From positions 1-47,373 of IMG/VR virus record IMGVR_UViG_3300030329_005324: a DNA stretch of 47,373 nucleotides. One strand, written 5' to 3'. Numbering within the stretch: the stretch's first letter is position 1; every line of letters starts with the position of its first letter. The position numbers and the translations under genes were made by a program. Below, piece by piece: positions 1,254 through 35,980 of this stretch. The notes beneath the pieces were generated by a model. That model did not search any database. It had not been told where the DNA came from and saw only the letters and a program-made list of their open reading frames with translations. The DNA is from a virus.

Positions 1254-4200
1254 AAGCCTGTACTCTTTATTCCAGCACCTTGTTTTATTATAGGTCCAAA
1301 TGTACCTCTAAAAGGTATGAATGGGTCAACTATTTCATAAGCTCCATGCTTTAAATCTTCAGAGTCTCCATTTATTGCCCCAGCCATGATAGACCACAAT
1401 ATGTCAAAAGGTTTTTGAACTCCTAATCCAACAAAACTATGCCTTAATATATTAGACATAGCCCACCTAGTAGTGCTTTCATCTTCATCATCAAGTAAAG
1501 ACCTTAACAGTATCGTTAAAGGCAAGAGCATTAAACCTAATAAATCAGAACGCATCCCACCTACTGATTGTAATCCAAATTTCCTAAGAGCATATCTAAC
1601 TACACTTCCACCTACTGGTCCAAATAATATTAAGTCCATCAGTAATGTTATCGGGCCTTGCAATAATAAGAAATCTCTTAATTGAGCAAATTCATGATTA
1701 GCCATTCTTGTTTCTTTACTTGTAAAATATCTAAGCTTTCCACCTCTATAAAACTCTCTTCTAGCTTCTTTTTGAAATTGATGAACTTTTTTAAACCATA
1801 TTCTCCAAGTTTGTCTAACGTGAGGGTCCTCTATAGTAGCAATAATATCCTCATAATCAAGCATTGCATCTAATCCAGTTTGAAACATTTTCCAATCTTT
1901 AGCAAATTTTTGAACTGACCATATTTTAAATTTACCTATAATACCTCCACCAAGAGGTGAATGAAACATATTGGGCGCATCTTGAGGAGTCAATCCAAAG
2001 TTTGCTGCTCTTGAGTAAAGCCTTCCAAATTCCATAGCTAAAATTAAATCTTCACCCTTAAGGTCTTTAACTGGCTGTCTTTTAATAAGACCAGCATCAA
2101 AAGCTTTATTTACACCGATAACAAAAGATATAGTTCTTATCCACTCTTCTCCAGCAGACATAGTTAATCCTATCTCGTTAACTTTATCAGATACAAATTT
2201 AAATATCTGACCTGGACCAGATTTAATCATTTTAGGAATAAAATTCTTAACACTAACATTTTCCATAACAGGACTAAATTCCCATTCTTTAGTTATAGCC
2301 CAGTTAACATATTTTTGAGCAAACCCCTTTATCCTTCTACGCTTAACAATATTTTTTCTATTAATAACTCTTTGCTCTTCAGGAATCATATTCTTAAGTT
2401 CCCATTTCATATAATTAGGAGAGGCTGCTATAATTTCTTCTATCTGTTTTTCTAAAATTTCTTCTAAATCTTTAATACTTTTAGCCTTAGAGTAAACGCC
2501 ACGTAACTTCTTATTCTTTTTCATACTTCTTTTCATAGCATAATACCTAATTATCTCACCTAATATTTTATTATGAGTATCAAGTTCTATAGTGTCATGT
2601 ATATAATCAGATGTTAATGTTTTATTAAAAAAATCTCTAAATTCAATTACACCAGAACGCTGTATGAAATCTCTCCATCCTTCTTTATCTTCTTTATACG
2701 CAGCTAAACCTTCTGATAGAGATTTAGTCCCCCAATCTATAATATTTTGCTGTATTGCAGTCATATTTTGAAGCGTAGTGCCCATACCTGAAAGATACTG
2801 ACCACTAATGCCACTAGATATTATTCTAAACCATTCTTGCGCAACAGAAGGGTCTATTTTAATATTTAATCTACCTAATTGCCTTACAATATCTTGTGTC
2901 CCTAAATTAAAGGGGCCTATCTTTGCTTTAACATCAGTGAACCCGAAAGGAACTTTAAAATAATTAAGTATCATATCTCTGATAGTATCAGACTTAGCTC
3001 TACCCATCTGCTCAATTGTAGTAGCAATCAAATAATTTCTTTCAATAGCACTCATACTTCTTTTTAAAGATGCCTGATAGGAGCCCGAGTCTGCTCTCAT
3101 ATGCAAAGGATGTATAGTATTAGAAAGTTTTTTCATATGAACTTGATGTCTTATAAAAGGTATGCTTTCACCTTCAGCCATATAATCAATAGTTATTTCA
3201 TCTTGCCTATTTAACATATCTGTATATCTATCAGCAATTTCTAGTAAAGATTTTTTCTTAGCCTTTAGTTCAAAATATGTTTTATTCTTAAGGCCTTGAG
3301 CTTCCATTTGCATAAGAGCTGGGTCTATCCCATTTTCAATATCTTTCAGTATTGTTTTAATTTGTTTTTCAAATATCATAGGAAGCCTAATCGGGCTATA
3401 GACTGCTGGAAAGTGATTTCTCTTATGCCTCCTAGGCTCATTAGTAGTTTCCCAGTAAGGATTAATAACAGCCAGTCCAGAAATAGAATCTCTTATCTTT
3501 ACAGCTATGCTCCATTTTTCAGGACCTAATTGAGTTTTCAATTGATGCTCGTAATCAGCTATATCTTTTTTCTTCATACCCTTAGGATAAGAACCAAAAA
3601 GAACAAAATCTAAAGCCTCTCCATCTAGCTTAAATACTTTACTAAATGATTTTCTTATAGCTTCAACTGATTTTTCAGTAGCATTTTTAGTATATCTATA
3701 TAATTCATCATCTAGCTTTCTAAATCTTTCTTTAGCTTTATCTAATCCTTTTCTAACTTCTGGTAAATTAGTATTAACATAAAACTTACCTCCTTCAAAT
3801 TCTTTTAAAGGTACATATCTACCAAACATATACATAGGGCTTCCATCTTTATAAAATCTTTCAGGTGCTGGAAAATAGTCTTCAGCTATTACAAGGTCTC
3901 CCAACTCTTCATCATATTTAACTAAAGTATTGTTAAAGCTATCTCCTTTATTGCTCCATATAAATATTCTTAATAAATTTTCTTGATTTCTAGACTTATT
4001 TCCACCTAAAAAATCTGCTAATAAATGAACTTCATCTACAATATCGTCCCAACCATAATCACGCTTAGTCTTTAAAAGTTTAGGTTTTTGAAGAAAGTCT
4101 TTTATTCTGCCCATCATTTGATAAGGATATTTTTCAACAGCTTTTACAGCTAAATAGAAAGCTCCTGTTTTTTCTTTCATTGCTAAATTCTTAGGAAGCG

Positions 4201-4681
4201 TAAGGCTCACCATCCACTTACCAAAAACTCCTGTACCTAATGTCCTACCATCTCCTGCTTTAGCCCAAGAGGTTAACTGGAGAAGCATATTATTTAATGC
4301 AGATTTTGGCAACTCATCTAGCTTTGCCCCTAAATCATCTCCTTCTTTCCTAAGTACTTTAGGGTGATTTTCTATTATATATTGCCTAGCCCAATCCCAA
4401 TAAATTTCATTATTTTTAAGTATTGACTGTATTCTTATAGCAAGTTTTAGATTATTTGCTTTCTTTCCATATATAGTATCCAAAGCGCCTTCAAAATCTT
4501 CTGCAGTTAGAACAGCATCACCAAAAGTCTTTTCTAAGAAATCGTTTAAAGGCTTTAATTTATCTTCAGATATATAAGCGAATTTAACAATAGCATCATT
4601 GACATATTGAGTTCTATGTAAGTTCCCCTGCTTTATATCGTCTACTAATTTTCTTCTAATATCACATACATTATCAGCCAT
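1250..4681 (-). CDS. Large late virion protein, 1143 aa, with C-terminal membrane segments
   Basis: This is the last gene of the leftward late operon. The start is taken at ATG 4681, which overlaps the stop of the 4199-aa gene as TAATG; AAGGAG lies about 12 bases upstream. A TTG at 4690 is open but too close to that site. The protein is mostly helical and charged, with a glycine-rich segment near residue 624 (GQYLSGMGTTLQN). Hydrophobic stretches lie at about 1000-1022 (ITLLMDLILFGPVGG) and 1045-1060 (LMLLPLTILLRSLL). The C-terminus has EIVDPFIPFRG. By position and composition it is probably an internal virion protein that is ejected and inserts into the cell envelope with the giant protein. 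It could carry a C-terminal polyvalent-protein-associated domain; I cannot verify this. Confidence 0.8.
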   Translation of the reverse strand: MADNVCDIRRKLVDDIKQGNLHRTQYVNDAIVKFAYISEDKLKPLNDFLEKTFGDAVLTAEDFEGALDTIYGKKANNLKLAIRIQSILKNNEIYWDWARQYIIENHPKVLRKEGDDLGAKLDELPKSALNNMLLQLTSWAKAGDGRTLGTGVFGKWMVSLTLPKNLAMKEKTGAFYLAVKAVEKYPYQMMGRIKDFLQKPKLLKTKRDYGWDDIVDEVHLLADFLGGNKSRNQENLLRIFIWSNKGDSFNNTLVKYDEELGDLVIAEDYFPAPERFYKDGSPMYMFGRYVPLKEFEGGKFYVNTNLPEVRKGLDKAKERFRKLDDELYRYTKNATEKSVEAIRKSFSKVFKLDGEALDFVLFGSYPKGMKKKDIADYEHQLKTQLGPEKWSIAVKIRDSISGLAVINPYWETTNEPRRHKRNHFPAVYSPIRLPMIFEKQIKTILKDIENGIDPALMQMEAQGLKNKTYFELKAKKKSLLEIADRYTDMLNRQDEITIDYMAEGESIPFIRHQVHMKKLSNTIHPLHMRADSGSYQASLKRSMSAIERNYLIATTIEQMGRAKSDTIRDMILNYFKVPFGFTDVKAKIGPFNLGTQDIVRQLGRLNIKIDPSVAQEWFRIISSGISGQYLSGMGTTLQNMTAIQQNIIDWGTKSLSEGLAAYKEDKEGWRDFIQRSGVIEFRDFFNKTLTSDYIHDTIELDTHNKILGEIIRYYAMKRSMKKNKKLRGVYSKAKSIKDLEEILEKQIEEIIAASPNYMKWELKNMIPEEQRVINRKNIVKRRRIKGFAQKYVNWAITKEWEFSPVMENVSVKNFIPKMIKSGPGQIFKFVSDKVNEIGLTMSAGEEWIRTISFVIGVNKAFDAGLIKRQPVKDLKGEDLILAMEFGRLYSRAANFGLTPQDAPNMFHSPLGGGIIGKFKIWSVQKFAKDWKMFQTGLDAMLDYEDIIATIEDPHVRQTWRIWFKKVHQFQKEARREFYRGGKLRYFTSKETRMANHEFAQLRDFLLLQGPITLLMDLILFGPVGGSVVRYALRKFGLQSVGGMRSDLLGLMLLPLTILLRSLLDDEDESTTRWAMSNILRHSFVGLGVQKPFDILWSIMAGAINGDSEDLKHGAYEIVDPFIPFRGTFGPIIKQGAGIKSTGF

Positions 4682-7600
4682 TACGTGCAATCTCTCCTTA
4701 TAACATCTTCAATAGAACTGTAGTTAGCTCTAGTATCCGTAGGTTCTATAACTGTATTTCCTGGAATTTTAAGATATTTATTATAGTTATTATAATACTT
4801 TTTCAAGACTTTTTCACTTAATAATTGTCTTTCTTTTGTGCTTTCACTGGCAGGAGGTAACATTCTAAAATTCCTCATCCTACCATAACCACCTTTACCA
4901 GATTCTAATTTTTCAGAAGTTTTTATAAATCCTCTGAGATACCATATAGTACCTATAACCTTAGCAACTTCTGACAGCTCTGTATATGTATGTATTATTT
5001 CAGGAGTATTTTCTTGACGTTTCCAATATTTCTCAGTCATATCAACAACATCAGCATTTCTTTCAAGTGTTTGTGGCCCCATACTATCTAGGTCTTTCAA
5101 TGATTCCATATATGCATTCCCCATCTGTTGCCTATATAGAGTTCCTTTTTTAAATTCAGAACGATACCACTGTTCCCTGCTCATATTCTTAGGCACATTG
5201 CCTAACTTTAAATCTTTTTTATAAGCATTATCTAGCAATTTATCTAAATCCCTGTCAATAGCTTCATTAGCAAATCTATGAGCATTATTATGTAGATGTC
5301 TATTCAACTTAAATATAGTATCCTCATAGCCAACCTTATCATACTTAATCACATGCTCTCTCATAGTTCTCATAGGGGCAAGTATCAAGTCTTCCCAAGG
5401 CGAGCTCAAGACACTGTCTTCTGTAAACTCTATATCAGTTATTTCTCCCACTCTATCAGAATTCATAGTATCTAAAGCATTTCTATCTAATATCCATTTA
5501 AATCTATCTCTAACATAACTGTCAAACTCATTCGATTTATCTATAATAGTATCAGTATAAAAATTATTCCAACCCTCTCCCTGTATAAATTCACCACCTC
5601 CACGTAATCTACCTGGGTTTTTATGCATTTCCAATAGAGGGAATAAGGCTCCATAATTTCTTTCTAGGTCTATCTCATCCCATGGCCCTATTTCATTTCC
5701 TTCTTTATCTACAGTTTTAAATAACATAGCATAAAGATTTTTAACATCATAACCCCATCCTTCTAAAAGCATAAATTTAGAGTTATCTACAGCTGCTTGT
5801 ATATAGAGTCTTAAAACATCTCTTACTTTCATGTCTTCTTGAGCTGGTTCAAAAAATATTTTCTCATCAAGGCTTCTTAAAGCTACTATATCACCGTCAA
5901 TTACAAAAGATTTATAAACTCTTGAAAGTTGCCCATACACATTTAGAATATTGGCTATCTCCCCAATAGATGTTTCGCCATAAGCTAAAGCTGACATAAG
6001 TTTATATCTATCATTTTTATTAGAAAAAACTAAGTCACTTCTACCTTCTGGAACATAATCTGATAAATTTATACCCTTTATATCACCAACAGATTTTAAT
6101 GTATCCTTTATAGCAGATAAATGAGAATCTGTAAGAGCTTCTATTTGAAGTTCATCGCCATCATTATCTCCTTCAAATCTTGCATATATATCATGGGGAT
6201 GCATTTCTACCAAACCCATTCTGCTATGTATTCTTCTAATAGTTAGCACACCTACGCCACCTATATGAGGCACAGGGTATCTTGCGGCAGCAACTTCTAC
6301 ATCATTATTTTTTAGCCATTCATTTATTTTAGGAATCATTCCAGGCCTCATAGCTTCCTTAACACTGATTCCCTTGTCTAATGCATATCTTTTATAAACT
6401 ACAGCAGCATTATGCCTACCTATAGCTATTTCACCTATACCTAAGTCTCCTTTAAGGTTTCCAGTTATCTTCAATCTTGAACCCAATTGATATCCAGATT
6501 TAAGTATTTTCCTCATTCTTTTAGTATACAATATTTGATTTAAAAGAGGCTCTAATCCTTGATGCATACCAGCTCCAAGTTTTGCATGCTCTAATGCAGC
6601 TAAACTATATCCTTCTAAATCTTTAGTTTCTATTATATCTTTTAAAAATGTGAGTATTTTTTCTTCAGGACCTACATCTCTTTTTAATTTAGTATCATAG
6701 GTAGTGGTGGCGTATCCCCAAAACTTAGCTAATTGTTTGTTTATCTGACTTAAAATATCTCTTTTCCAAGCTTTAATAACTTCATTGTTATTTTCTGGAA
6801 CATATCCATACCACTGAACACCATGAGTCCCAGTCGATGTAGCTTTATCTCTATAAGTAATAAATCCTATAGATTGACCAGATATATCTTCATGCACAGT
6901 ATCTAAAGCTATATTATCATTAACCTTAACTTCGTCTCTTGTAGCAAGCACATCTATTCTATTTCCATCTGCATCTTCAATTCTTCCATTATTATCTATT
7001 CTTGCGACCAATCTTTCGTCAGGAGTTCCTTTATCATACCATATCTCCATATTCCTACTAGGTTTTATCATCTCGTGCTTCATCATTAAAGTCTTATTAT
7101 TAGGACCTCTCCAATAAACAACATTTTTATTGCTACCAGACTCTCTTAAAACACCTCCATATTTAACTAAATTACCCCACATTTGATTTCCAGCAAAACT
7201 TCCACCATCATTTATATATTTCCAACCAACTCCATCTACATATTGCATTGCAGGAGTCTCCTTTCCTGTTTCGGTATCTACAAATGTAGTTTTCTGCTCT
7301 CCTGTTTTATCATTTCCATAATCAAATATTTTTAAATTAAAACTAGGCATATCCTTACTAACAGTACTAGGTGTAAAAGGTATCTTAATACGAACCATAT
7401 TATTTGCAGCTCCTTTCGCATCTCCTAGATACCCAGGCCATATTTTTTTCATAGCTTCATGAACAGCTATATCTTTTGCATCTTTAAAACCAGCTATCAT
7501 ATCGTCTCTATCATGAGGGATAAATCCATAACTAATCTCTTTCTTTATATATGCCTTGATATCTCTAGCCTGTTCTTTAGCATAGGTTGTGATTTTAGTT

Positions 7601-10600
7601 AGCCCTATCCTACGCTTCTCGCCTCTAGTAAATACGATAGCTAAACCTAACTTTTCTAATTCTTTTTCAAGTATATCATAGTGAGATGAATTTAAAAATC
7701 CATATGTATCTTGAAGTGTATCCACTTTTCTTCTTTGTCTAGGATTCCAGATTTTTTCAATCTTATAAAAATCTCTATTAGATATCCATTTTATAAGACC
7801 TTTCCCTCCATTATATTCAAATAAAGTAATTTTTTGACCAGACACATTAGCATGTTTAGTCATCTTATTTTCTGGACCTTTTAACTCTACATCAAAATGA
7901 AGCTGATTGTCAGCTCCCATTTTAGCAACAAGAACATAACTGTCTCTCTCATTCTTTCCATTCTCACGATTTGTCCATACATAGCTATTTATTCTATAAT
8001 AAAATCTTTTAGTCATTTGCTTCTGATATTCTGTTAAGCCTTCGTAAGTTTTCTTAGTTAAACTATGCATAACTCCATCTCTTTTAACAAATTCTTCAAA
8101 TGAATCAGTTTTACGAGCTTCTTTTTTAAGCTCTACAAAATCAGATTCAGATATATATATATTTAAATGGCTTAACCAAGCACGTTCTGTCATACCTACT
8201 TCACTTTCTTTATGCTCTCCAGTTTCTCTTGAATTTCTTAACCCTTCTCTTACAACTTCACTTTCAAAATATTCAATAACTCTATCCTTAACATCATCAA
8301 GCTCAGCAATTTGTAACTTATTATCTCCTTTAATTTTATTTCTTTCTTGGACATCTTTAAAGTTCTTAAACTTGCCTTGAAACCATTCGATAAAATATTC
8401 TCTAGTAGATTCGTCATCTATTGCATTTATCATAGAATCTCTAAAATGCATATGGTCAACACCGCTAAATCCTTGATTTGCCATTATATTACCAATAGCA
8501 CTCCAAGCATCTTCAAAGATATGATTAAGCTCTGATTCCCTTGTTCTTCCTAGACCAGTTTGCTTTCTGCTTAAATCATTTGCCTTATTATAAACCTCCT
8601 CTTCTGTAGTTGGTTCATATTGCAAATCTTTTAATTCTTGAATCATAGGCTGAAATCTAGAAGGTATTAAAGCATGCCTGTCTAATATATCTACTCTAAC
8701 AAGCTCCCACTTAGACCAAGAAGGACGTTCTTTAGTTACCCTAACAATACCTTGCTTAGCAAGTTTATTCAAAGCTTTTGGAATTTGCCCTATATTACTA
8801 AATTCTATAGTATACCAACCCACTGGACCAAGCATCCCCTCTACAAAACCTCCTCTGCCTATTCTCCCAACATTAAATTCTTCTCCATCCTGAGTTTTTA
8901 TTTTAGTCTTTAAAAAAGTTTTCTTCCATTTATTTGTCATAGATGTATAGGCTTTTAAAATATGTGGATAATGGACTCTAGACTTATAAAAGATTGACTG
9001 AGCCTGAGGGTCTCTAAAATTCCAGTAATCTCTGTCAAGATTTCTTATAAAGTCTATAATTTGGGTATAATCTAACACCTCTCCTCCAGCAAAAGGATTT
9101 TCTTGATTTTCTATAGCTATTTTAAAAATATCTTCCATTACATCTAATGCTAAAGATTGTCTATCATTTAATGAAAGTATGTCTTTATCAGCAAACTTCC
9201 CATTACTGTCAAATAATTCGACAAAAGACTTCTCGTCAAAAACAAAGTCCCCTTTATTATCTTTTACTGCTTCAAGTGTTTTTTCTGCAAATTCCCATAA
9301 ACTAACTAGATTATCTGCTACCATTTCTTCTTCTGTTAAATAAATACTTCTAGCACCATCATTACCTTGTATAGGATGATTGCTATTTCCAGTCTGTATA
9401 TAAATATTTCCAGACTTTGAATTAGATGCATAACCTAATGCTGTAGGTAACAATATATCAAACCATCTCTTATAAAGATTGGCTAAATCTTCTGCTAATT
9501 GATATTGAGGGTGAGATATAGTTTGACCATCCTTGCCTCTAATAAATCCATCACCAAACTCAAGCTCTGCTGTTTCTTTATCGAACAAACCTTTGATGTC
9601 AATATATTTGTCATACATACTTTTAACAGTTGTATAAGAACGGAAATACAAATTAAGAAAATTCTTTATATAAAATTGAGCTGATTTAATATCGTATTCT
9701 ATATGACCAACATTATTTATCATATTGATAATGTTAAGCTGTTTATCAATCCTATTTTCTAGTTTTCTTATACGCTCTGAAGTGTATTTAATGCCTGGAA
9801 AAGGCTCCTCTAAATCATTATCAAGGGCTTTAGCTTTTAACATCTTTTCCAAATCACGTTGACTTTTCTCTAATTGCCTTTTCTCAAATGAGATATCACC
9901 TTCAGCATAAGATTGGTGGTCAGGATAAATATCGATTTGAGGCCTTAAAGGACTTTTTTTCTCAAACCAAGCTCTATTAAAGAAACCGTCTTTGCTAAGA
10001 TGTGATGTAAGTTTATTGCTCTCTAAAAATTCAAAAATAGCCATAGCTTCTTTATTGTTTAAAAGCTCACCCATATCCGTACGCATTAAATATAAAGGAA
10101 ATCCATTCATAAATGTATAAAATTCAATATACTTACTATCATTGAGCTTTTTATCGCTAATATTTTTATAATCAAAAGCAAGTAACTCATTCATATCCCT
10201 TTTTAAATGACCTTGATTAGTATTCCTATAAAGATTTGAAATCAATTGAAAGAATTTCTTTTTCAGCTTTTTAGCTTCAGGGGTATCTTCATAAAGAAAA
10301 TCGAAAAAGGGATTAGCACCTGGCATTTGACCTATATGAGTAATAAGGATTTGTCTATACTTAGAATAAATAACAGCTTTATCTGTAATATTTTCGATTA
10401 TATCAGAAACATCCTCACCGTTATCAACTCTTTCTCTAATTAATGCAAGTAAACTGTTATCCTTATTAAACTCTTTCATTATAATATGGCCTGGCTTAAA
10501 TGATATATCATTTTCAGTACCTGGCACACCTAATATATCTTTAGAACCTTTTTTTCCTTCAAAGAACTGGAGAACATCTTTCCATACAGGCCACTCTGAA

Positions 10601-13600
10601 TCATTATTATGCTCGATTAAACTCCTAAAAGGTTCAGCTATTAATTCTTTAGTGCTGCTACCCCAAGAAATTTCTCCAGACTTATCATTAGAAAAAACCA
10701 TCTTAGGTAAACCTCTTAAAGTAAGCTCCTCTATCCTTTTTGTGAAAATCTCAGCTTTAGCTTCAATCTCTTCAAAAGTTACTCTCCCTTGACCACTTTT
10801 CAATATGTCAACAATTTCAGGCAATAAATCAGACTGAAACTCAAATAAAAATATATCATCTCCCACAGCATTTTTATTCTCAACAAACGATACCCATCCT
10901 AAACCATTTAATTTATGCAATATTTCAGGAGTAGTTTCAACAGTATCAGTATATATGAAATTACCTTTGTCACCTCTAAATACTGATGGGAGAACGTGCC
11001 CTGGGAGGTTAGGGTCATGCTTAAAATTAGTTGTAAGCATTAATCTATAGTGGTCTACTCTTTCAGCTTCTGCTTCTTGAATAGCTAATTGCTCTACCTC
11101 TGGGTCAAGGTCCATAGCTTCAATTTCCATTTCTTGCTCAAAAGTAAGCTCTCCCTTAATGCCAGTTTTTAAAGGAATCATTATATTATGAGGATGTATA
11201 TCATGCTGCCATCCACCAACTGTAGTCATAAATAAAGCATGATTATTTTTTATATATTCTATAAATAAACTTTGAATAATTTCAGGGAACACTCTTTTAT
11301 CCGTCACTCCTCTTCTTTTTAGTTCTGGGAGCAACCATTCAGCTCTAAATCTTTCAATAATATCAGATTCAATTTTGCTTATATTAAACTTTTTATAAAT
11401 ACCTTTGTTTTGAGTTCCAAATTTATCAGTTACCAGCAACTTATCTGAGCTGAAATATGTTCTATGAGCTTCTTTATCCATAAGTAAATCATTAAACTTA
11501 TATTTAACAGGAACTACATCTATTAATCCGTTAATAATCCATTGAGTTTTTTCAGTAAAAATGTCATTTGGTCTATTGGGTAGGACCTCTAATAATGATT
11601 CGTAATCATGAATCATATCTTTATATTTCCCCCCTCTATTATCAATAATCGCCATAGACTCTGTTAAAACATTTTCTAAATGCCCTTTCATTATTTCTTT
11701 TCCGTAAATCTCAGGATATTCTTTTAATTGATTTTCATAATAGTCAGTTATAACTTCTGTATCTTTTTCCGTTAACGAATATCTATCAATTAATTTTGAC
11801 TCTATTTCCAACTTAATCTTATCAATATTTTTTTGCAGTCTACTAGAATCTAAGCTTCCATCTTTATTAAAGAAAGGCTTTACAGCTTTTAAAATTATAC
11901 CACTTACGCTATTAGCCAAGTCGCCTACAAGCAAACTTTTCTCATTCTGGATAGTATTATTTTCTTTACTTAAAGATGTTATAACACCTTGACTCTCTAA
12001 TACTATTTTCTCCATAAATTTTTCAGTTGACTTAGCGTCTAATACCTTAAATACAAAATCTGAATCATACTCAGTAAGCATCTTTGCAATATCTTCAAAA
12101 GTAGTTTTTTCGGTCACTTCATAGGCATTAACATGCTTGGCTTTACTAAAAAAGAACGATTTTACCCAGTTTAAGAGCCTTTTAACTGCCGACATAAACT
12201 TACCCTCGTCTACAGATTTTATAGCCTTAGAACGCTTTCTAGCATTTCTAGCTATAGATTCAATCATAACTTCAATTTTAAATAGCTGAGATTCTTCATC
12301 TAATTCCCATCCACCATCAATCTTTTTAGCCATTAATTCGCCCATCACTTTCTCGCCAACTTTAGTCCCAATCAATTGACTGTAAATAGAATTAAACAGC
12401 TTCCTATCTTTATGATATAACATCTCAATAAATGGATGCATTATTTCATGAAAGGGAGTAGTGCTGTCAGCAGTAGCTGTATTAATGTAAATAACTCCAT
12501 CTTTATACCAACCTCTATCAGTTGTATCTTTAAAATCTTTTACTACCCACTTAACAGGTTTTCCATCTATTATAACTTTATCTTTAATTGATGAAATAAT
12601 ATCATTTATATTTCTTTTAACAGCTTCTTTCTTACTTTCAGTCCTAGTTTGCATATATGGAGATTGTTGCTTTCTGGCACCGCCTTTTAAAGAAATAAGA
12701 TAATTGTAATTTTTTGCTTCAATATTCCTAGCATTTATTTCAAAGTTTGAAGCAGTAGTTCCTTCTCGCATCCACTTCACTTCCTCTTCTGTCCCAAATT
12801 TAGATTGAAGATTCTCTATAGCTGCTTTTTGAGTAGCTCCATTGCCAATCTCTAAGCCAGTTCTTTCATCGACTATAGACCATTGATTGTCTTCATTGTA
12901 ATAAATAAAAGTAGGTCTGAGAGTAGGTATTGCATCCTGTAAGTCTATTGATTTCCCTGATACAGCTTTAAGAGCCCAGCCGAGCTCGTTTTCAGCTCTT
13001 ACACGTACACGAAACGTACTGTATCCTTGTTTATGCTTGTCCATGGTAACGCTTATTTCAGGAAAGGTAACAAACTTTCCATCAACAGTAACACCATGAC
13101 GCATCTGAACGTTAATAGCCTTTTCTTTATTTTCCCAAGGATACTCAAAAGAATCATCTTTAAGAGAAAAATCTACAGTCTCTGTTTTTGAGGGATTAAA
13201 GCTATTTATAAAATCTTTTAAATGGATTATATAATTATCACGAAAAACAAACTTTCCATCAATTTTAGGTAATAAGACTGAATCAACAATATATCCAGTA
13301 TCTTTATCCCAAAGCTCATCCGCTACTCCAAGAATTTCCATCCCTTCAAAAATATCAATAGCCATCTTACGTAGAATTCCGTCACCTTTAAAGTCTTCGT
13401 CAAGAAATTCTTCTTCACTTATACCTAATTGTTTTGCTAACTCTTTTTCAGATATGTTTTGTATACCAGCTATTAATTCTTGCCAAGAAAATCTCAATTC
13501 TCCAGTAAGATGGCGGCCTACTTTTTTACTTTGTTCCTCAATAAGCCACTCTATACCCTTTATTAAATTATCTAAGTCACCACCCTTTTGCATTATTTTG

Positions 13601-16600
13601 TCAAATTGCTCTTGACTCATCCCCTCTTTTAATCCATATTTATTAAGAAAGGATACTAATACCTCAGAAAGCCAATCATCTGTAACATCACCTTCGTAAT
13701 ACTCATCTATTGACCCAGGCACTCGCTTAATTTTCTCTTTTCCTGTTTCAGTACTGGCATCATCTTTAACGCCCATAATTGCTTTTATTATATCTTGCAA
13801 TTGAAGTACGGATTCGTCAATCCAATCCTCACCCATCCACTCTTTAGTCTTTAACCATTTAATAAGTTTATTGATTTCTGCGGGGCCAACTACCTGCCTA
13901 ATAACATCTTCTCCGATATCTTGTATTATTGCATAAGCTTTCTCACCTTTTAAAAGATGTGTCATTATCCTAGCTATAGTTTTATTATTAAATTTCTTAA
14001 CTAGCCCTTCCATTCTCTTTTTATTGATAGCTGTTATAGTTTTTTCAACACCTTTTTTACCCTTACGCTTTTCAATCTCAGCTTTTATTTCTTTTACCCT
14101 TAAACCAGCTATTAAGCCTCTTGTTTTTTCTTCTTTTTCAAGAGCTTTTCTTAATTCAGAAAGAGACATTTTTTCATAATTATAGGAAACTTTTTTAGGA
14201 GGGTCAGGTTTTTCGTCTTTTTCAGGCTTTCTATCTTTTTCAGGAGCTTCTTGCTTTTTGTCAGGCTTGCTGTCAATTTTACTTATCTTAGAATCTATCT
14301 CTTTTAATTCTTTTTTAATTTCATCAAAACGCTTACTATCACCCTTTTTAGTCTTTTTATTATCAGCTCTTGCTTGTATTTCTTTTTGCTCTTGCTCTAA
14401 GATAGATTTTTGCTTTAATAAATCTCTTCTATTATTAGCGGTAGTTTCAAAAACATCTTTTTCATCTTTAGGTTTTTCAGGTGAAATCTCTTGTTGAGGA
14501 GCATCTTCAGGTTTATCTATTTTTAAAGCAGTCTTAGCTTCATTCTCAATATCATCCCAAGTCTCAGTAGCCATATTTAAAATATCTTCAGGCTCAACTC
14601 CAATATTTTCAACTGCTTTTGGATTAGCCATAGCTTGTAAAGCACGTTTTCTGTATTCTACAGGGTCGTCTAAATCAGAGTCTTCATCTTCTAAAATCTT
14701 ATTTTCTTCTTCAGTTAGGCTTTCTTCCATAAAACTTTTCAAGAAAGTAGTATCTTTTCTAGTTTGTTGTGAATCAGCTGAATCGCTAGACGAAAAACTG
14801 ACACTAGTATTTTCTATTTCATCTGAACCAAAATACTCAAAAGTATCATCAATATCTTTAATATTTTTCTCTATGTTGGTCTTAGCTTTTTTAGCCTCCC
14901 ATCTGTTTTCAAATTTTTCTACAGCTATTCTTTCACCCTCTGAAGAAAGTATTTCAAATTCAACTTTACCAGTTTCTTTATCAATAGTAATGTCGCCAAC
15001 TTTAGCGCCTCTATATTGACTATGCATTTTAGCTTTAACTTTTCGCTCATACTTTCTTTGTTGCTTTCTAAGTCTATTTGTAACTTTATTAGCAGCTCTT
15101 CTACTACCATATTCTTCTTTTATATTGCCTGCAAGAACTCCATCGTCCTCTTTTAACTGCTCAACCTTACCGTCAACAGTTGTAAATATACCCCATACTC
15201 CATCACGAATTTCTTTTGTAAAAAATTCTACTCCAGTTTTAGGAGGGTCTTTCATTATTTTATCATTAACTATTCTGTCAGTTCTTCCAGAAAGATAACT
15301 AGTAGTTCTAACTGTCTGAACACTCCCACCCATAAGAGCACCGCCTATAAAACTTTCAAAAGCTTCATTCCAATCATATTCAAATTCAGGTTTATATGCA
15401 GTTATTGGAAGGCCAGAATTAATTAAACTTTGAGCTGTATATTGACTAAACTCTTGAGCTCCTTCAGAACCTAATGCTGATACTATTTTAAAGAATTCAT
15501 TATCAGGGATATTATAAACCTTATTAATCCCAGGAATCCTTCTCATGAAATTTTCAACTTTATTTCTAACAAAATACTCACCACTTCCTAAGCTCTTTGG
15601 ACCCCAGTTACCAGGCATAAGTTTAAAGAAATGAGTAGCTTGCATTCTTTCTAAAAATCCAGCTATAGGAGCATAAGTTAATGCAGATAAAATAGCAGCA
15701 TCTAAAGCATCTTCAGCAGACATTCCTCTTTTCCAATACCTGCCTAATTCAAACTTATAATTTTCATTAGTAAAGTAATCAATATCGCTTTTCATCTGCT
15801 GTCTAGTTCTTATAGGTTTTTGATTTTCATCTAAAACACCTTGCCTATCAGGAAAAGTAGCTAATCCACTTCCTTCATCTACTATATAATATTTATCTAA
15901 ATAATCATCTTTAAATGCTTTGATATCAGCAAACAGTTCTTGCTCTTGGATAACTCTTTCAGCCATTAAATAGTCTACCCCAGAACTTAATTCACTAGCA
16001 CCCTCTAAAAGAAATGTAGTTGAAAACACAGCATTCTTAGCCCATAATTGAGCTACGTCATCTGCTTTACCTAAAGCTTTTGCACCTTTAAAAGCTAGTG
16101 CACCAGTACCAAAAGAGGTAATCAGTGAAGGAGCTGCTCCACTTATTATTCTCGTCCACACATTAAAATTGCCTAAATTGCTCCAAGCTGGAGTGCTTTC
16201 AACCCATTCAGCATAATGCCAGTACTCAGGGTCATATTTTTTTCTAAAATTGTCTTCATTGGCTTCTTGCTGTTTAACAGCAGCAACAAAATCTCCTGGA
16301 GCCTGCAAAGCCCAGTTAGCTTTATTCCAAAAGCCAGTGCCATAATCATCAGGAGATTTCCTATCTCCTTCAGCATAGTATTGAGCATCACTTGTAAGCC
16401 CTACTCCATGAGCAGCCCAATCTATTGTATCTACAAAACCATCCCATATAGTCGCTATGAACAAAGGAACTTCTTTAACTACATTTTCAGCAAATCCACT
16501 TAAATTTTCAGACAAGATATCTAATGTGCCTATATTATCACCTGTAACCAAAAGGTCTTTAAGCTCATCGTTTCGAAGTATTACGTCATTAAGGAATTTA

Positions 16601-17280
16601 GAATCATCCCAATATTTATAAGGAGCTTGAGAATATCTAGGTGTACTTCTTAACATAGAAATAAGTTCTGAATCTCTGTATTGAGGATAAATTAACTGCA
16701 TAGTCTCAATGTCTATAGCTCTAGCTCTTTTTAGTTCTTGATTATCTGGATATAAAATTCTTAATGCTTCTAAAGGCTCTACACCATATTCATATCTTAG
16801 CAATATTTCTTGCTTATCTCTGCCTATTTGAGCTCTAAACCATTGCTCCATTTCATCATAATCTTCATCAGATTGAGCAGGAAATATCATCGTAGCACCT
16901 CCTGGTGTAGCTTCAGCTACAGCTACATCTCTGTAAAGCGCTCCATATTCATCAGTAAAGAAAGGAACGTGTAAGTCTGGTTGCTTTGCACGAGAAGAGT
17001 CTGCAACTTTCATTCCCTCTACTATTTTATCTGGAAATAGTAAATTATGCATTTCTTGAGTATATACACCAGATATGAGTTCCCATTCACTGTCGAATGG
17101 AGCTGCTCCATGCCAAGACTCAGGCATCTTTAATTCACTTAAAATTGAATAGTAATTATAATGCTTTAATATTAATTCCTTAGAATCGAGAAGGGGAGCA
17201 CTTCTTTTTGCTCCTTCTTCATCGTACCAAGGGTCATCAAAGCGGTGAGCTATTTGAGTTTGCTTTAATTTTGTAACCAT
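4681..17280 (-). CDS. Giant virion protein, 4199 aa: zincin protease plus RNA-polymerase-like double-psi barrel
   Basis: One unbroken frame of about 480 kDa. Features by residue: hydrophobic, glycine/alanine-rich helices at about 375-405, 527-545 and 640-656, with EGAQE at 606; an acidic and lysine-rich low-complexity linker at about 830-1080; a zincin motif HEIMH (1611-1615) after a strand-like GWYKDGVIYIN, with glutamates downstream as candidate third ligand; an EFQSD motif at 2147-2151, typical of large phage polyvalent proteins; a possible first barrel around DGVGWKY (3349) to Lys3401; and RYPVPH (3667-3672) then FEGDNDGDEL with DxDGD at 3705-3709, matching the RxPxxH...NADFDGD pair of RNA polymerase beta-prime. 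The start lies three bases after the previous stop and lacks a ribosome binding site, so translation is probably coupled. Inference: a packaged, injected RNA polymerase with a protease that may process it. The motifs are seen; activity is not shown. Confidence 0.85.
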   Translation of the reverse strand: MVTKLKQTQIAHRFDDPWYDEEGAKRSAPLLDSKELILKHYNYYSILSELKMPESWHGAAPFDSEWELISGVYTQEMHNLLFPDKIVEGMKVADSSRAKQPDLHVPFFTDEYGALYRDVAVAEATPGGATMIFPAQSDEDYDEMEQWFRAQIGRDKQEILLRYEYGVEPLEALRILYPDNQELKRARAIDIETMQLIYPQYRDSELISMLRSTPRYSQAPYKYWDDSKFLNDVILRNDELKDLLVTGDNIGTLDILSENLSGFAENVVKEVPLFIATIWDGFVDTIDWAAHGVGLTSDAQYYAEGDRKSPDDYGTGFWNKANWALQAPGDFVAAVKQQEANEDNFRKKYDPEYWHYAEWVESTPAWSNLGNFNVWTRIISGAAPSLITSFGTGALAFKGAKALGKADDVAQLWAKNAVFSTTFLLEGASELSSGVDYLMAERVIQEQELFADIKAFKDDYLDKYYIVDEGSGLATFPDRQGVLDENQKPIRTRQQMKSDIDYFTNENYKFELGRYWKRGMSAEDALDAAILSALTYAPIAGFLERMQATHFFKLMPGNWGPKSLGSGEYFVRNKVENFMRRIPGINKVYNIPDNEFFKIVSALGSEGAQEFSQYTAQSLINSGLPITAYKPEFEYDWNEAFESFIGGALMGGSVQTVRTTSYLSGRTDRIVNDKIMKDPPKTGVEFFTKEIRDGVWGIFTTVDGKVEQLKEDDGVLAGNIKEEYGSRRAANKVTNRLRKQQRKYERKVKAKMHSQYRGAKVGDITIDKETGKVEFEILSSEGERIAVEKFENRWEAKKAKTNIEKNIKDIDDTFEYFGSDEIENTSVSFSSSDSADSQQTRKDTTFLKSFMEESLTEEENKILEDEDSDLDDPVEYRKRALQAMANPKAVENIGVEPEDILNMATETWDDIENEAKTALKIDKPEDAPQQEISPEKPKDEKDVFETTANNRRDLLKQKSILEQEQKEIQARADNKKTKKGDSKRFDEIKKELKEIDSKISKIDSKPDKKQEAPEKDRKPEKDEKPDPPKKVSYNYEKMSLSELRKALEKEEKTRGLIAGLRVKEIKAEIEKRKGKKGVEKTITAINKKRMEGLVKKFNNKTIARIMTHLLKGEKAYAIIQDIGEDVIRQVVGPAEINKLIKWLKTKEWMGEDWIDESVLQLQDIIKAIMGVKDDASTETGKEKIKRVPGSIDEYYEGDVTDDWLSEVLVSFLNKYGLKEGMSQEQFDKIMQKGGDLDNLIKGIEWLIEEQSKKVGRHLTGELRFSWQELIAGIQNISEKELAKQLGISEEEFLDEDFKGDGILRKMAIDIFEGMEILGVADELWDKDTGYIVDSVLLPKIDGKFVFRDNYIIHLKDFINSFNPSKTETVDFSLKDDSFEYPWENKEKAINVQMRHGVTVDGKFVTFPEISVTMDKHKQGYSTFRVRVRAENELGWALKAVSGKSIDLQDAIPTLRPTFIYYNEDNQWSIVDERTGLEIGNGATQKAAIENLQSKFGTEEEVKWMREGTTASNFEINARNIEAKNYNYLISLKGGARKQQSPYMQTRTESKKEAVKRNINDIISSIKDKVIIDGKPVKWVVKDFKDTTDRGWYKDGVIYINTATADSTTPFHEIMHPFIEMLYHKDRKLFNSIYSQLIGTKVGEKVMGELMAKKIDGGWELDEESQLFKIEVMIESIARNARKRSKAIKSVDEGKFMSAVKRLLNWVKSFFFSKAKHVNAYEVTEKTTFEDIAKMLTEYDSDFVFKVLDAKSTEKFMEKIVLESQGVITSLSKENNTIQNEKSLLVGDLANSVSGIILKAVKPFFNKDGSLDSSRLQKNIDKIKLEIESKLIDRYSLTEKDTEVITDYYENQLKEYPEIYGKEIMKGHLENVLTESMAIIDNRGGKYKDMIHDYESLLEVLPNRPNDIFTEKTQWIINGLIDVVPVKYKFNDLLMDKEAHRTYFSSDKLLVTDKFGTQNKGIYKKFNISKIESDIIERFRAEWLLPELKRRGVTDKRVFPEIIQSLFIEYIKNNHALFMTTVGGWQHDIHPHNIMIPLKTGIKGELTFEQEMEIEAMDLDPEVEQLAIQEAEAERVDHYRLMLTTNFKHDPNLPGHVLPSVFRGDKGNFIYTDTVETTPEILHKLNGLGWVSFVENKNAVGDDIFLFEFQSDLLPEIVDILKSGQGRVTFEEIEAKAEIFTKRIEELTLRGLPKMVFSNDKSGEISWGSSTKELIAEPFRSLIEHNNDSEWPVWKDVLQFFEGKKGSKDILGVPGTENDISFKPGHIIMKEFNKDNSLLALIRERVDNGEDVSDIIENITDKAVIYSKYRQILITHIGQMPGANPFFDFLYEDTPEAKKLKKKFFQLISNLYRNTNQGHLKRDMNELLAFDYKNISDKKLNDSKYIEFYTFMNGFPLYLMRTDMGELLNNKEAMAIFEFLESNKLTSHLSKDGFFNRAWFEKKSPLRPQIDIYPDHQSYAEGDISFEKRQLEKSQRDLEKMLKAKALDNDLEEPFPGIKYTSERIRKLENRIDKQLNIINMINNVGHIEYDIKSAQFYIKNFLNLYFRSYTTVKSMYDKYIDIKGLFDKETAELEFGDGFIRGKDGQTISHPQYQLAEDLANLYKRWFDILLPTALGYASNSKSGNIYIQTGNSNHPIQGNDGARSIYLTEEEMVADNLVSLWEFAEKTLEAVKDNKGDFVFDEKSFVELFDSNGKFADKDILSLNDRQSLALDVMEDIFKIAIENQENPFAGGEVLDYTQIIDFIRNLDRDYWNFRDPQAQSIFYKSRVHYPHILKAYTSMTNKWKKTFLKTKIKTQDGEEFNVGRIGRGGFVEGMLGPVGWYTIEFSNIGQIPKALNKLAKQGIVRVTKERPSWSKWELVRVDILDRHALIPSRFQPMIQELKDLQYEPTTEEEVYNKANDLSRKQTGLGRTRESELNHIFEDAWSAIGNIMANQGFSGVDHMHFRDSMINAIDDESTREYFIEWFQGKFKNFKDVQERNKIKGDNKLQIAELDDVKDRVIEYFESEVVREGLRNSRETGEHKESEVGMTERAWLSHLNIYISESDFVELKKEARKTDSFEEFVKRDGVMHSLTKKTYEGLTEYQKQMTKRFYYRINSYVWTNRENGKNERDSYVLVAKMGADNQLHFDVELKGPENKMTKHANVSGQKITLFEYNGGKGLIKWISNRDFYKIEKIWNPRQRRKVDTLQDTYGFLNSSHYDILEKELEKLGLAIVFTRGEKRRIGLTKITTYAKEQARDIKAYIKKEISYGFIPHDRDDMIAGFKDAKDIAVHEAMKKIWPGYLGDAKGAANNMVRIKIPFTPSTVSKDMPSFNLKIFDYGNDKTGEQKTTFVDTETGKETPAMQYVDGVGWKYINDGGSFAGNQMWGNLVKYGGVLRESGSNKNVVYWRGPNNKTLMMKHEMIKPSRNMEIWYDKGTPDERLVARIDNNGRIEDADGNRIDVLATRDEVKVNDNIALDTVHEDISGQSIGFITYRDKATSTGTHGVQWYGYVPENNNEVIKAWKRDILSQINKQLAKFWGYATTTYDTKLKRDVGPEEKILTFLKDIIETKDLEGYSLAALEHAKLGAGMHQGLEPLLNQILYTKRMRKILKSGYQLGSRLKITGNLKGDLGIGEIAIGRHNAAVVYKRYALDKGISVKEAMRPGMIPKINEWLKNNDVEVAAARYPVPHIGGVGVLTIRRIHSRMGLVEMHPHDIYARFEGDNDGDELQIEALTDSHLSAIKDTLKSVGDIKGINLSDYVPEGRSDLVFSNKNDRYKLMSALAYGETSIGEIANILNVYGQLSRVYKSFVIDGDIVALRSLDEKIFFEPAQEDMKVRDVLRLYIQAAVDNSKFMLLEGWGYDVKNLYAMLFKTVDKEGNEIGPWDEIDLERNYGALFPLLEMHKNPGRLRGGGEFIQGEGWNNFYTDTIIDKSNEFDSYVRDRFKWILDRNALDTMNSDRVGEITDIEFTEDSVLSSPWEDLILAPMRTMREHVIKYDKVGYEDTIFKLNRHLHNNAHRFANEAIDRDLDKLLDNAYKKDLKLGNVPKNMSREQWYRSEFKKGTLYRQQMGNAYMESLKDLDSMGPQTLERNADVVDMTEKYWKRQENTPEIIHTYTELSEVAKVIGTIWYLRGFIKTSEKLESGKGGYGRMRNFRMLPPASESTKERQLLSEKVLKKYYNNYNKYLKIPGNTVIEPTDTRANYSSIEDVIRRDCT

Positions 17281-33239: not shown

Positions 33240-33953
33240 CTATCTAACTGCGTACGGTCCAGGAGTAGCCATTATTCTAGCTCCTGATTTTAACGAACTA
33301 TCGTACTTTTCTGTAATTTTTCTATATTCTCTCATGAAATATTCTTTAGACTCAAATTCTCCTTGGTCTTCTGCTAATTTAGCTTTAACATAATATACTA
33401 AAGCTTTTTCTAGATAAGAAGGAATAGGTAATTCATCATCTTCATCATTCAATATGTCTACAGAATAATAAAGAGTAGGAGTTCCTGAAAAATCTTGAAA
33501 CGTAGCAGAGCCACTATATTTAGTTTCTAATATTATAACATTATTAGTCCCTGTAGCGCTTGAAAAATTACGTATCTTATGAAGACCGTTCCATCTATCT
33601 GCATTGCCTAGTACTATATAGCTCCCAACAGCAATATAATCAGTATCAAGAGTTGCATAATTTGTATATGAACTTGTATTATCAGCTACTTCTAAAAACC
33701 CCGAATTGCTTCTAAATTGAGTTAAATTTGTGTCAGTATAGTGACTTGTGCTTTTTAAAAAATAATCAGGAGTATGGGTATATTGTAACTCTAGTCCTAC
33801 ATCAACTGTAGACTTTGGAGACCTCCATTGAGTCCTATGTACTCCTGGTCCATAATCTCTAGAATTAACATCATTATCAAATTGTGTATCTCTTTCAACA
33901 ATGCACAACTTTCTACCTTCTATATAAAATCCGTATTCTTTTACATTAGCCAT
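33240..33953 (-). CDS. Neck/tail structural protein, 237 aa
   Basis: The C-terminal third is helical (PSYLEKALVYYVKAKLAEDQ... EYFMREYRKITEKY), a pattern common in head-tail connector or tail-adaptor proteins of marine phages. The middle is beta-rich. Its start overlaps the stop of the 93-aa gene. Gene order (capsid, decoration, connector-like, this gene) supports a head-tail joining role. No precise family is recognised. Confidence 0.65.
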   Translation of the reverse strand: MANVKEYGFYIEGRKLCIVERDTQFDNDVNSRDYGPGVHRTQWRSPKSTVDVGLELQYTHTPDYFLKSTSHYTDTNLTQFRSNSGFLEVADNTSSYTNYATLDTDYIAVGSYIVLGNADRWNGLHKIRNFSSATGTNNVIILETKYSGSATFQDFSGTPTLYYSVDILNDEDDELPIPSYLEKALVYYVKAKLAEDQGEFESKEYFMREYRKITEKYDSSLKSGARIMATPGPYAVR

Positions 33954-34234
33954 TAAACATCATCTCCATCTGGAACCCAAGGCTTATTAACTAATCTTGG
34001 GATTCTTCTATATTCATCTTTACTATTCAAATGATTCAAAGCTCTAACTTCTAAAATCTTTATTACATTATCGGGTATATCATAAAATCTTTGGTCTTTT
34101 ACTATATCTAATTTTTGCAACATGATATGAGTTTCAAAGTTCATATTTAAATCTTCTAAACCATCTTTTATATATGCAATAATTCTTCCTGTTTCAAAAT
34201 TATTAACTCTCTCCATTAACTGTTGAACTTTCAT
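33953..34234 (-). CDS. Small neck-type protein, 93 aa
   Basis: A compact helical protein with IIAYIKDGLEDLNMNFETH followed by DIVKDQRFYDIPDNVIKILEV, a layout shared by short head-tail connector proteins. Its ribosome binding site (AGAAGGAGGAGGAGATA) is formed entirely by the arginine codons at the end of the upstream gene, and start and stop overlap as TAATG. The connector role is inferred from size and position. Confidence 0.65.
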   Translation of the reverse strand: MKVQQLMERVNNFETGRIIAYIKDGLEDLNMNFETHIMLQKLDIVKDQRFYDIPDNVIKILEVRALNHLNSKDEYRRIPRLVNKPWVPDGDDV

Positions 34235-34947
34235 TATCTCCTCCTCCTTCTACGTCTTCTTCTAGGCCTATCCTCATCACTATCATCGCTCCTATTCATT
34301 AAAAGTTCTTTAGTGAGAAACATTTGAGCATATTCACTATTCATTGTTTCTATAATTTTTTTATAAGATTCTACAAGCTCTACATCTTCGTCCGCAGAAA
34401 GCATATTATTAATATGAAAAGTTATCCCTTTTATAGATAAATTTAAAATCAAATGTGGATAAAATTGCTTTGGAAAATTCCTTATTCCTGTACTATCTAA
34501 ATCTGTTGAAGGACTAAGAGATACTCCATCAAAATCTAACGTAGGATATTCTATGTAATTTAATTTATATGTTTCATTGCTACTTGAAGGAACTGGATAT
34601 ACATAAATTTGATTATCCTTATCTCTTATAAATGCAGGATTATACTTAGATGCATATGAAAAACTATTCACATCCGTTACTAAGTATTCTTTAGATTTAT
34701 CTATTTCCTTGCAAGCTCTCCATTGATTATCTGTGCCATCTTCTCTCATAACGGTAAAAATAATTCCACTATCAACTTTAAAGCCATTTGTATCTTGCTC
34801 ATCTGACTCGTGCGCAAACAGAAGGCCCGCAGCAGGATTAAGTTTCATAACCCCTGCGATTACCTCTATTATTCCTTGCAGAATTCCTTCCGTACTTACA
34901 CTAACTGGAAAGCCTACTTTACTTGTTACATATTCATTTATAGTCAT
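34234..34947 (-). CDS. Head-tail connector-like protein with nine-arginine tail, 237 aa
   Basis: The body alternates helix and strand with DNQIYVYPVPSSSNETYKLNYIEYP and a late helical region (VELVESYKKIIETMNSEYA), typical of neck/adaptor proteins in short-tailed phages. It ends with an acidic patch (DDSDED) and then RP followed by nine arginines. Such a tail could contact packaged DNA or RNA, or simply exist because those codons form the next gene's ribosome binding site. The start follows TAGGAAAAA. The connector call is moderate. Confidence 0.65.
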   Translation of the reverse strand: MTINEYVTSKVGFPVSVSTEGILQGIIEVIAGVMKLNPAAGLLFAHESDEQDTNGFKVDSGIIFTVMREDGTDNQWRACKEIDKSKEYLVTDVNSFSYASKYNPAFIRDKDNQIYVYPVPSSSNETYKLNYIEYPTLDFDGVSLSPSTDLDSTGIRNFPKQFYPHLILNLSIKGITFHINNMLSADEDVELVESYKKIIETMNSEYAQMFLTKELLMNRSDDSDEDRPRRRRRRRRR

Positions 34948-35413: not shown

Positions 35414-35980
35414 CTATTTATAGTGTTGAAAAACAACACCTATTTTAACATTACCAGTTGCACTACTTAAGTTGGCATCAATAACGTCAAATCTAACATG
35501 GATTTCTCTAGCTGAAGAACCACTATCTAATAAACCAGCAACAAGTGTTCCTGTTGTAGCTTCGCTAGTAGCAGTATCAGGAGCAGCCCAGTTAGCAGGT
35601 TGACCATGGCAATTTTCAATAACATACAATGGAGTATTTGCTTGCAAAGAAACAGCAGAGCCCCCATCATCTAGTATCTCAGTTAATGCCATTATTTGTG
35701 CTCCACCAGCAGCAGTACCAATACTCATATCCATACCATCACCATTGTCACCTGATGTTGATATTATTGAATCAGCAACTACAAATAAGTCTTTAATAAC
35801 TGTATTTGCAGGCTGTGATATAGCGGGTACGTCTGTAGTTCCATGAGCAACTGGAATATTAATCCAGTCAGACTCAACATAAGAAGTTCTGCCAGCTTTA
35901 GTATCAGTAAATAATCCTGAATCTGTTACATTATCAAGAATATTATCTGACGTATTCTGTCCATACATTGGATTAGCCAT
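35414..35980 (-). CDS. Probable head decoration protein, 188 aa
   Basis: It lies 11 bases after the major capsid gene with its own AAGGAGG site. It is beta-rich and acidic with many small residues (IPVAHGTTDVPAISQPANTV, GMDMSIGTAAGGAQ). Decoration/cement proteins are commonly encoded immediately next to the major capsid protein in tailed phages. The call rests on position and composition; no specific family is recognised. Confidence 0.65.
   Translation of the reverse strand: MANPMYGQNTSDNILDNVTDSGLFTDTKAGRTSYVESDWINIPVAHGTTDVPAISQPANTVIKDLFVVADSIISTSGDNGDGMDMSIGTAAGGAQIMALTEILDDGGSAVSLQANTPLYVIENCHGQPANWAAPDTATSEATTGTLVAGLLDSGSSAREIHVRFDVIDANLSSATGNVKIGVVFQHYK

Follow-up and report, generated by a model that had tools for sequence, protein, structure and literature searches.

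The arginine-run end of a phage neck gene most likely carries the Shine-Dalgarno site of the following gene

Shine-Dalgarno (SD) motifs within the 3' end of an upstream gene, overlapping gene pairs, and the coupling of their translation by termination-reinitiation are already known, as described in passages of PMC6728339 and PMC10666635. A literature search found no report of a version in which the intragenic SD lies in a run of arginine codons, which is weak evidence of absence. We analyzed such a case in a 47,373-base virus record, IMGVR_UViG_3300030329_005324, positions 1 to 47,373; this whole stretch is referred to as the window. Pfam matches in its virion block are to a P22-like portal (192.5 bits) and to an SU10 major capsid protein (83.6 bits); the three genes that come next are here named A, B, and C. 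Elsewhere in the window, positions 4681 to 17280 hold one minus-strand ORF of 4,199 aa, which is very large for a 47-kb phage record. The features around the junction of genes A and B are as follows.

34234 to 34947, minus strand: gene A, 237 aa, neck protein with a predicted adaptor fold, C-terminal end ...NRSDDSDEDRPRRRRRRRRR (ORF, Pfam, AlphaFold2, Foldseek, and VIA-align)
33953 to 34234, minus strand: gene B, 93 aa, beginning MKVQQLMERVN, conserved small protein of the virion block (ORF)
33240 to 33953, minus strand: gene C, 237 aa, following B with the same TAATG overlap (ORF)
34232 to 34236, minus strand: TAATG, stop of A and start of B, 1-nt overlap (sequence)
34237 to 34263, minus strand: nine terminal arginine codons of gene A, AGA AGA AGA CGT AGA AGG AGG AGG AGA (sequence)
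34240 to 34249, minus strand: putative SD site of gene B within gene A, AAGGAGGAGG, two overlapping registers, 8 and 5 nt before the ATG (duplex energy and retention in relatives)
34250 to 34263, minus strand: outer arginine run outside the SD duplex, AGA AGA AGA CGT and the start of AGA (sequence)

On the minus strand, the nine arginine codons are preceded by GAT GAG GAT AGG CCT and followed by TAA, the last A of which is shared with the ATG of gene B. AAGGAGG at 34243 to 34249 lies 8 nt before this ATG, and an overlapping AGGAGG at 34240 to 34245 lies 5 nt before it. The last four arginine codons of A together with the preceding A read AAGGAGGAGGAGA, and the duplex of this stretch with the assumed 16S 3' end has an energy of -12.1 kcal/mol; all SD energies were scored against this assumed anti-SD, from which that of the host may differ. 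Only 2 of the 41 ORF starts listed in the window, which were mechanically chosen, have a stronger SD (-12.8 for the gene starting at 37536 and -12.9 for the gene starting at 35980). The 20-nt junction of A and B occurs a single time in the record. The initial annotation, made from the window alone, had read the codons of the nine-arginine tail as the ribosome binding site of the next gene; the nine terminal arginines, the TAATG overlap, and the -12.1 kcal/mol site, as scored with the assumed anti-SD, confirm this. Its term dual coding applies to the junction in the ordinary sense that an upstream gene contains an SD: the coding sequence of A holds an SD motif at a fitting distance from the start of B, and the stop and start of the codirectional genes overlap. 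The A-B pair is an ordinary kind of compact gene overlap.

Arginine accounts for just 4.2% of the codons of the whole contig, and therefore the run of nine is no background event. The contig uses AGA 424 times, AGG 104 times, and CGN codons 97 times. When nine arginine codons were drawn with this usage (5,000 draws, in a test made after seeing the case), 1.3% of the draws gave an SD at least as strong as the observed one, and 2.8% gave a triple AGG. The rarity of an equally strong SD indicates that the placement of AGG reflects more than arginine usage. Only four of the nine arginines lie within the SD duplex; five are outside it, and one of these is written CGT. Positions 34264 to 34302, directly before the run, encode an acidic tail (SDDSDED), so that gene A ends in an acid-then-base block.

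Gene A scored 24.5 bits against the Pfam family SU10_adaptor (PF24175), below the cut-off of 27, and was therefore not assigned to this family by sequence. The homolog in its nearest relative (L085) scored 21.1 bits, and the N-terminal part of gene B gave a weak match of 18 bits, both under the same cut-off. The AlphaFold2 model of A had a pLDDT of 89.2 and a pTM of 0.79, with the arginine tail as its least certain part (59 and 58 in the last two blocks). A Foldseek search with this model retrieved cyanophage A4 (9k09_d, E 1.9e-6), phicrAss001 (2.0e-5), and the SU10 tail (7z47_B, E 1.9e-4). VIA-align gave a Z of 10.7 for cyanophage A4 over 188 residues at 4.2 A, 9.4 for SU10 over 193 residues at 6.0 A, 9.2 for phicrAss001, and 6.5 for T7 gp11 (7box_N). 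The TM-scores against solved adaptors were only 0.40 to 0.57, and by the program's own note a Z of this size can mean a common arrangement only. We accepted an adaptor fold because adaptors top the list and cover most of the model; gene A is thus predicted to have the fold of the SU10, T7 gp11, and cyanophage A4 adaptors. A comparison of the A sequence profile with PDB chains gave two weak adenylate cyclase matches (E 0.003 and 0.006), which were taken as chance. Homologs of A range from about 215 to 975 aa, since they differ in the extra sequence that surrounds a profile-matched core of about 160 residues (for example, in L027, L115, L052, and L087).

Gene B is conserved across the group, with a mean column identity of 58% among 40 aligned homologs. 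Its model was poor and unusable (pLDDT 64.7, pTM 0.30). B and C are fused as one ORF in two relatives (L040, positions 11756 to 12958, 401 aa; L210, positions 2501 to 3775, 425 aa), which suggests that the two products act together or that one connector protein has been split or fused. The fused ORFs had no Pfam match at E 0.1. Descent of A, B, and C from one another as paralogs was unsupported by profile comparison (probabilities 2.95, 0.28, and 0.15). In two homologs of B, a long insertion separates the N-terminal helix region from the remaining conserved domain (L102, positions 3091 to 4173, 360 aa; L100, positions 648 to 1961, 437 aa). The only cellular-genome match for B was a 9,350-base contig of a Flavobacteriales MAG (L212). 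Bacteroidetes reportedly make little use of SD motifs, according to a passage of PMC6728339; the strong SDs seen here fit poorly with this, and the contig may therefore be a mis-binned phage.

A conserved-fragment scan with A alone gave one relative, and relatives were therefore gathered by way of the capsid protein, from which 80 of 480 were retained, a sub-alignment of A, which contributed 80 of 93, gene B, and the junction pattern. Gene B as the query gave 46 relatives in viral contigs and 1 in genome contigs, and the junction pattern gave 2 stretches, one of them on an already included contig. A tblastn search with gene A in the named phage collection had no match, and the A homolog of L085 as the query returned its own contig alone. 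This set of relatives, drawn by capped scans, is a sample, not a census; its loci contain 141 B-homologous ORFs, with repeats of one contig counted. As several loci were the same contig twice, near-duplicates (at least 85% identity over the last 45 nt of A) were dropped. The 159 A-homologous ORFs gave 101 distinct tails, of which 4 were without a callable next start and 97, the window included, were kept. Seven of these 97 tails were left out for a next start more than 3 nt away, and in the remaining 90 usable junctions the next start lies between -11 and +3 nt from the end of A. This start was assigned by a homology-like rule, with 6 misfits among 83 in an earlier set, and one start of B (in L170) was mis-called.

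The SD is retained at this junction beyond what the protein sequence dictates. An SD of -6 or stronger was found in 71 of the 90 junctions, compared with 46% under a synonymous null and 12% under a permutation null, while 19 of the 90 were weaker than -6. The mean SD energy over the 90 junctions was -8.08; the mean under synonymous resampling was -5.59 (lowest of 200 replicate means, -6.40), and permutation of the tail codons gave a mean of -2.65 (lowest, -3.50). Codon choice points in the same direction: with the window left out, AGG made up 32 of 101 arginine codons in the SD region compared with 112 of 772 in gene bodies (p = 5e-5), and CGN made up 1 of 101 compared with 41 of 772 (p = 0.08). 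The 165 other abutting junctions in the loci of the earlier set had a mean SD of -4.31 compared with -2.53 when permuted, much weaker than at A, although their starts were mechanically set at the ATG or GTG lying furthest upstream, and the SD figure is probably lowered as a result. At these junctions, arginine made up 5.1% of the residues in the SD region and 4.0% in gene bodies.

The frame in which the SD core is written differs among the relatives. By a longest-match rule for matches of at least 4 nt, with labels that name the frame and not the exact residues, the core was in the glycine-glycine frame (GGA GGx) in 43 of the 90 junctions, in the arginine-arginine frame (AGG AGG) in 28, in the lysine/glutamine-glutamate frame (AAG/CAG GAG) in 14, and in none in 5. 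With matches of at least 5 nt only, the numbers were 39 for glycine, 19 for arginine, and 9 for glutamate/lysine, and arginine made up 49% of SD-region residues in the arginine-frame class, 10% in the glycine class, and 6% in the glutamate class. On a quick tree of the A core with many weak branches (last 25 residues omitted), the frame class changed at least 20 times over 67 labelled rows. This is fewer than in all 300 label shuffles (21 to 28), and the frame class is therefore partly inherited.

Tandem AGG codons are slip-prone in E. coli, and slippage of ribosomes at this site could fuse the products of A and B into a single chain. Reading in the frame of B meets no stop over the five codons that separate an upstream TAG from the ATG of B. 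However, no standard slippery heptamer was seen at the junction, and relatives with the SD in the glycine or glutamate frame need no tandem AGG there. Linkage of A and B by frameshifting is highly improbable.

Arginine itself is not retained. The terminal residue is not arginine in 66 of the 97 tails, and 26 of the 97 have no arginine in the last ten residues, so that the conservation of arginine at the C terminus that would mark a nucleic-acid-binding tail was not found among the homologs. With the window left out, arginine made up 101 of 529 residues in the SD region, 69 of 1,696 just upstream, and 772 of 31,156 in gene bodies. The initial annotation had proposed to compare whether arginine or the AGG triplets are kept in relatives, and it had considered that the arginines either are needed by the protein for DNA contact in the neck or exist to drive translation of gene B. 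In the comparison, the SD was kept in three frames, those of glycine, arginine, and glutamate/lysine, and arginine was not kept. The translation part of that proposal stands for the last four codons; DNA contact is unsupported by conservation, with the five arginines outside the SD duplex left as candidates for it.

It is accordingly unlikely that the arginine run serves the adaptor as a functional basic tail in contact with DNA or with an acidic portal patch, with the SD as a convenient by-product. Five of the nine arginines lie beyond the duplex, one of them written CGT, and the last 12 residues carry a net positive charge in 60 of the 97 tails. Arginine is modestly raised upstream of the SD region compared with gene bodies (p = 2e-4 for the counts given above), and lysine is mildly raised there as well. 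The C-terminal embracing loop of the SU10 adaptor runs between portal subunits, as stated in a passage of PMC9509320. However, lysine is not enriched in the SD region compared with the upstream tail (34 of 535 and 119 of 1,715, p = 0.69), which would not be expected from a need for charge alone, and the confidence of the A model drops to 58 to 59 in the last residues. The nearest relatives differ in this respect. L085, in which A is 58% identical over 153 columns and B is 90% identical, ends in GRRGRR written with AGA codons, with arginine in four of the last five residues (RRGRR), and its SD is weaker and shifted (GAGGT, -7.1). From its sequence, this tail resembles the retention of arginine more than that of an AGG run. 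L166, the next relative in closeness, ends in APQRQAQQ with AAAGGCAGG and an SD of -7.5.

An arginine-rich end is thus common to two of the three in this group, and the full run of nine is found only in the window. Among the other 96 distinct tails, the longest terminal arginine runs were six (L095, written CGT AGA AGA AGG AGA AGA) and then three (three tails). The window has about five arginines more than the SD needs, and the SD gives no explanation for these outer five. A charge role of the outer arginines is possible in view of the SU10 adaptor loop described above. They may instead have arisen by expansion of an AGA repeat, or may form a purine-rich, unstructured stretch through which the start of B stays accessible, with the SD accounting for the last four arginines; we consider this combination somewhat unlikely. 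The SD is predicted to be unpaired in the folded junction of the window, and the region from -20 to +3 was more open than with codons from the gene's own body, both over the 90 junctions (0.61 compared with 0.49, p = 6e-12) and in the window (0.74 compared with 0.44). However, synonymous recoding was no lower (0.61 compared with 0.62), which indicates that the openness comes from residue composition and not from codon choice, and a disordered tail may produce it incidentally. In addition, part of the B start codon is base-paired in the predicted window fold, to sequence of A lying further upstream, and the whole junction folds like its shuffles (z 0.48). Such pairing would be compatible with a start of B that becomes available only once ribosomes have finished A, which is speculation at this z value.

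A further comparison concerned gene B behind genes other than A, using 80 distinct starts of B with an upstream gene. With A upstream at a gap of at most 3 nt (51 cases), the SD was -6 or stronger in 41, and arginine made up 61 of the 306 last-six residues. With another gene ending 7 to 12 nt before B (17 cases), the SD was -6 or stronger in 14; 13 of these SDs were at or after the upstream gene's stop codon, typically as TAGGAG with the stop codon within the SD, and 1 was inside the gene. Arginine made up 0 of the 102 last-six residues of these genes. When a gene other than A overlapped or abutted B, the SD was -6 or stronger in 0 of 12 cases, of which that in L170 is the mis-called start whereas the start appears correctly called in the other eleven. 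B therefore does not always require a strong SD, and we infer that one is kept where a loose tail like that of A can host it.

Taken together, the AGG AGG AGG AGA end of gene A is very probably the SD of gene B, with the nine-arginine end largely a by-product of carrying it, and the AGG triplets most likely serve B. Comparison among the relatives indicates that the SD is kept at the junction while its frame switches, that arginine follows the SD, and that AGG is preferred over AGA there. A ribosome that terminates A at the TAA would be positioned on sequence that can pair with the 16S 3' end in two registers, and would restart at the overlapping ATG by termination-reinitiation; alternatively, a free 30S subunit may start B at the site. 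Gene B is presumably translated by coupling to A in a host with a standard anti-SD. Since the C-terminal tail of the adaptor tolerates change, each lineage may write the SD in whatever residues its frame gives, namely, glycine-glycine, arginine-arginine, or lysine/glutamine-glutamate, with this phage using the arginine frame. More tentatively, and at somewhat less than even probability, the adaptor tail of this phage group may be an RNA-first peptide, whose glutamine, arginine, glycine, and glutamate are set mainly by the needs of the SD and of an unstructured start region; the nine-arginine tail would then be the extreme case of an SD that hopped among three frames at least 20 times.

The junction is a warning that an arginine-rich end of a phage protein may mostly carry a translation signal, and function should not be read into it. 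With one signal in three frames, and with the SD at the stop codon when the neighboring gene of B changes, it also provides a clean comparative example of how demands at the RNA level shape the end of a protein. Gene A is similar to the adaptors of SU10, T7 (gp11), and cyanophage A4 in its predicted fold and also in a gene block with a portal and a major capsid protein. In contrast, its identity to the solved chains is about 7 to 15%, and the C-terminal part is very variable among the relatives of A. In comparison with known intragenic-SD pairs, the A-B pair differs in having its SD in the arginine frame within a run of nine arginines. It is similar to them in being a codirectional pair, here of the virion block, with a 1-nt stop/start overlap and the SD in the upstream coding sequence.
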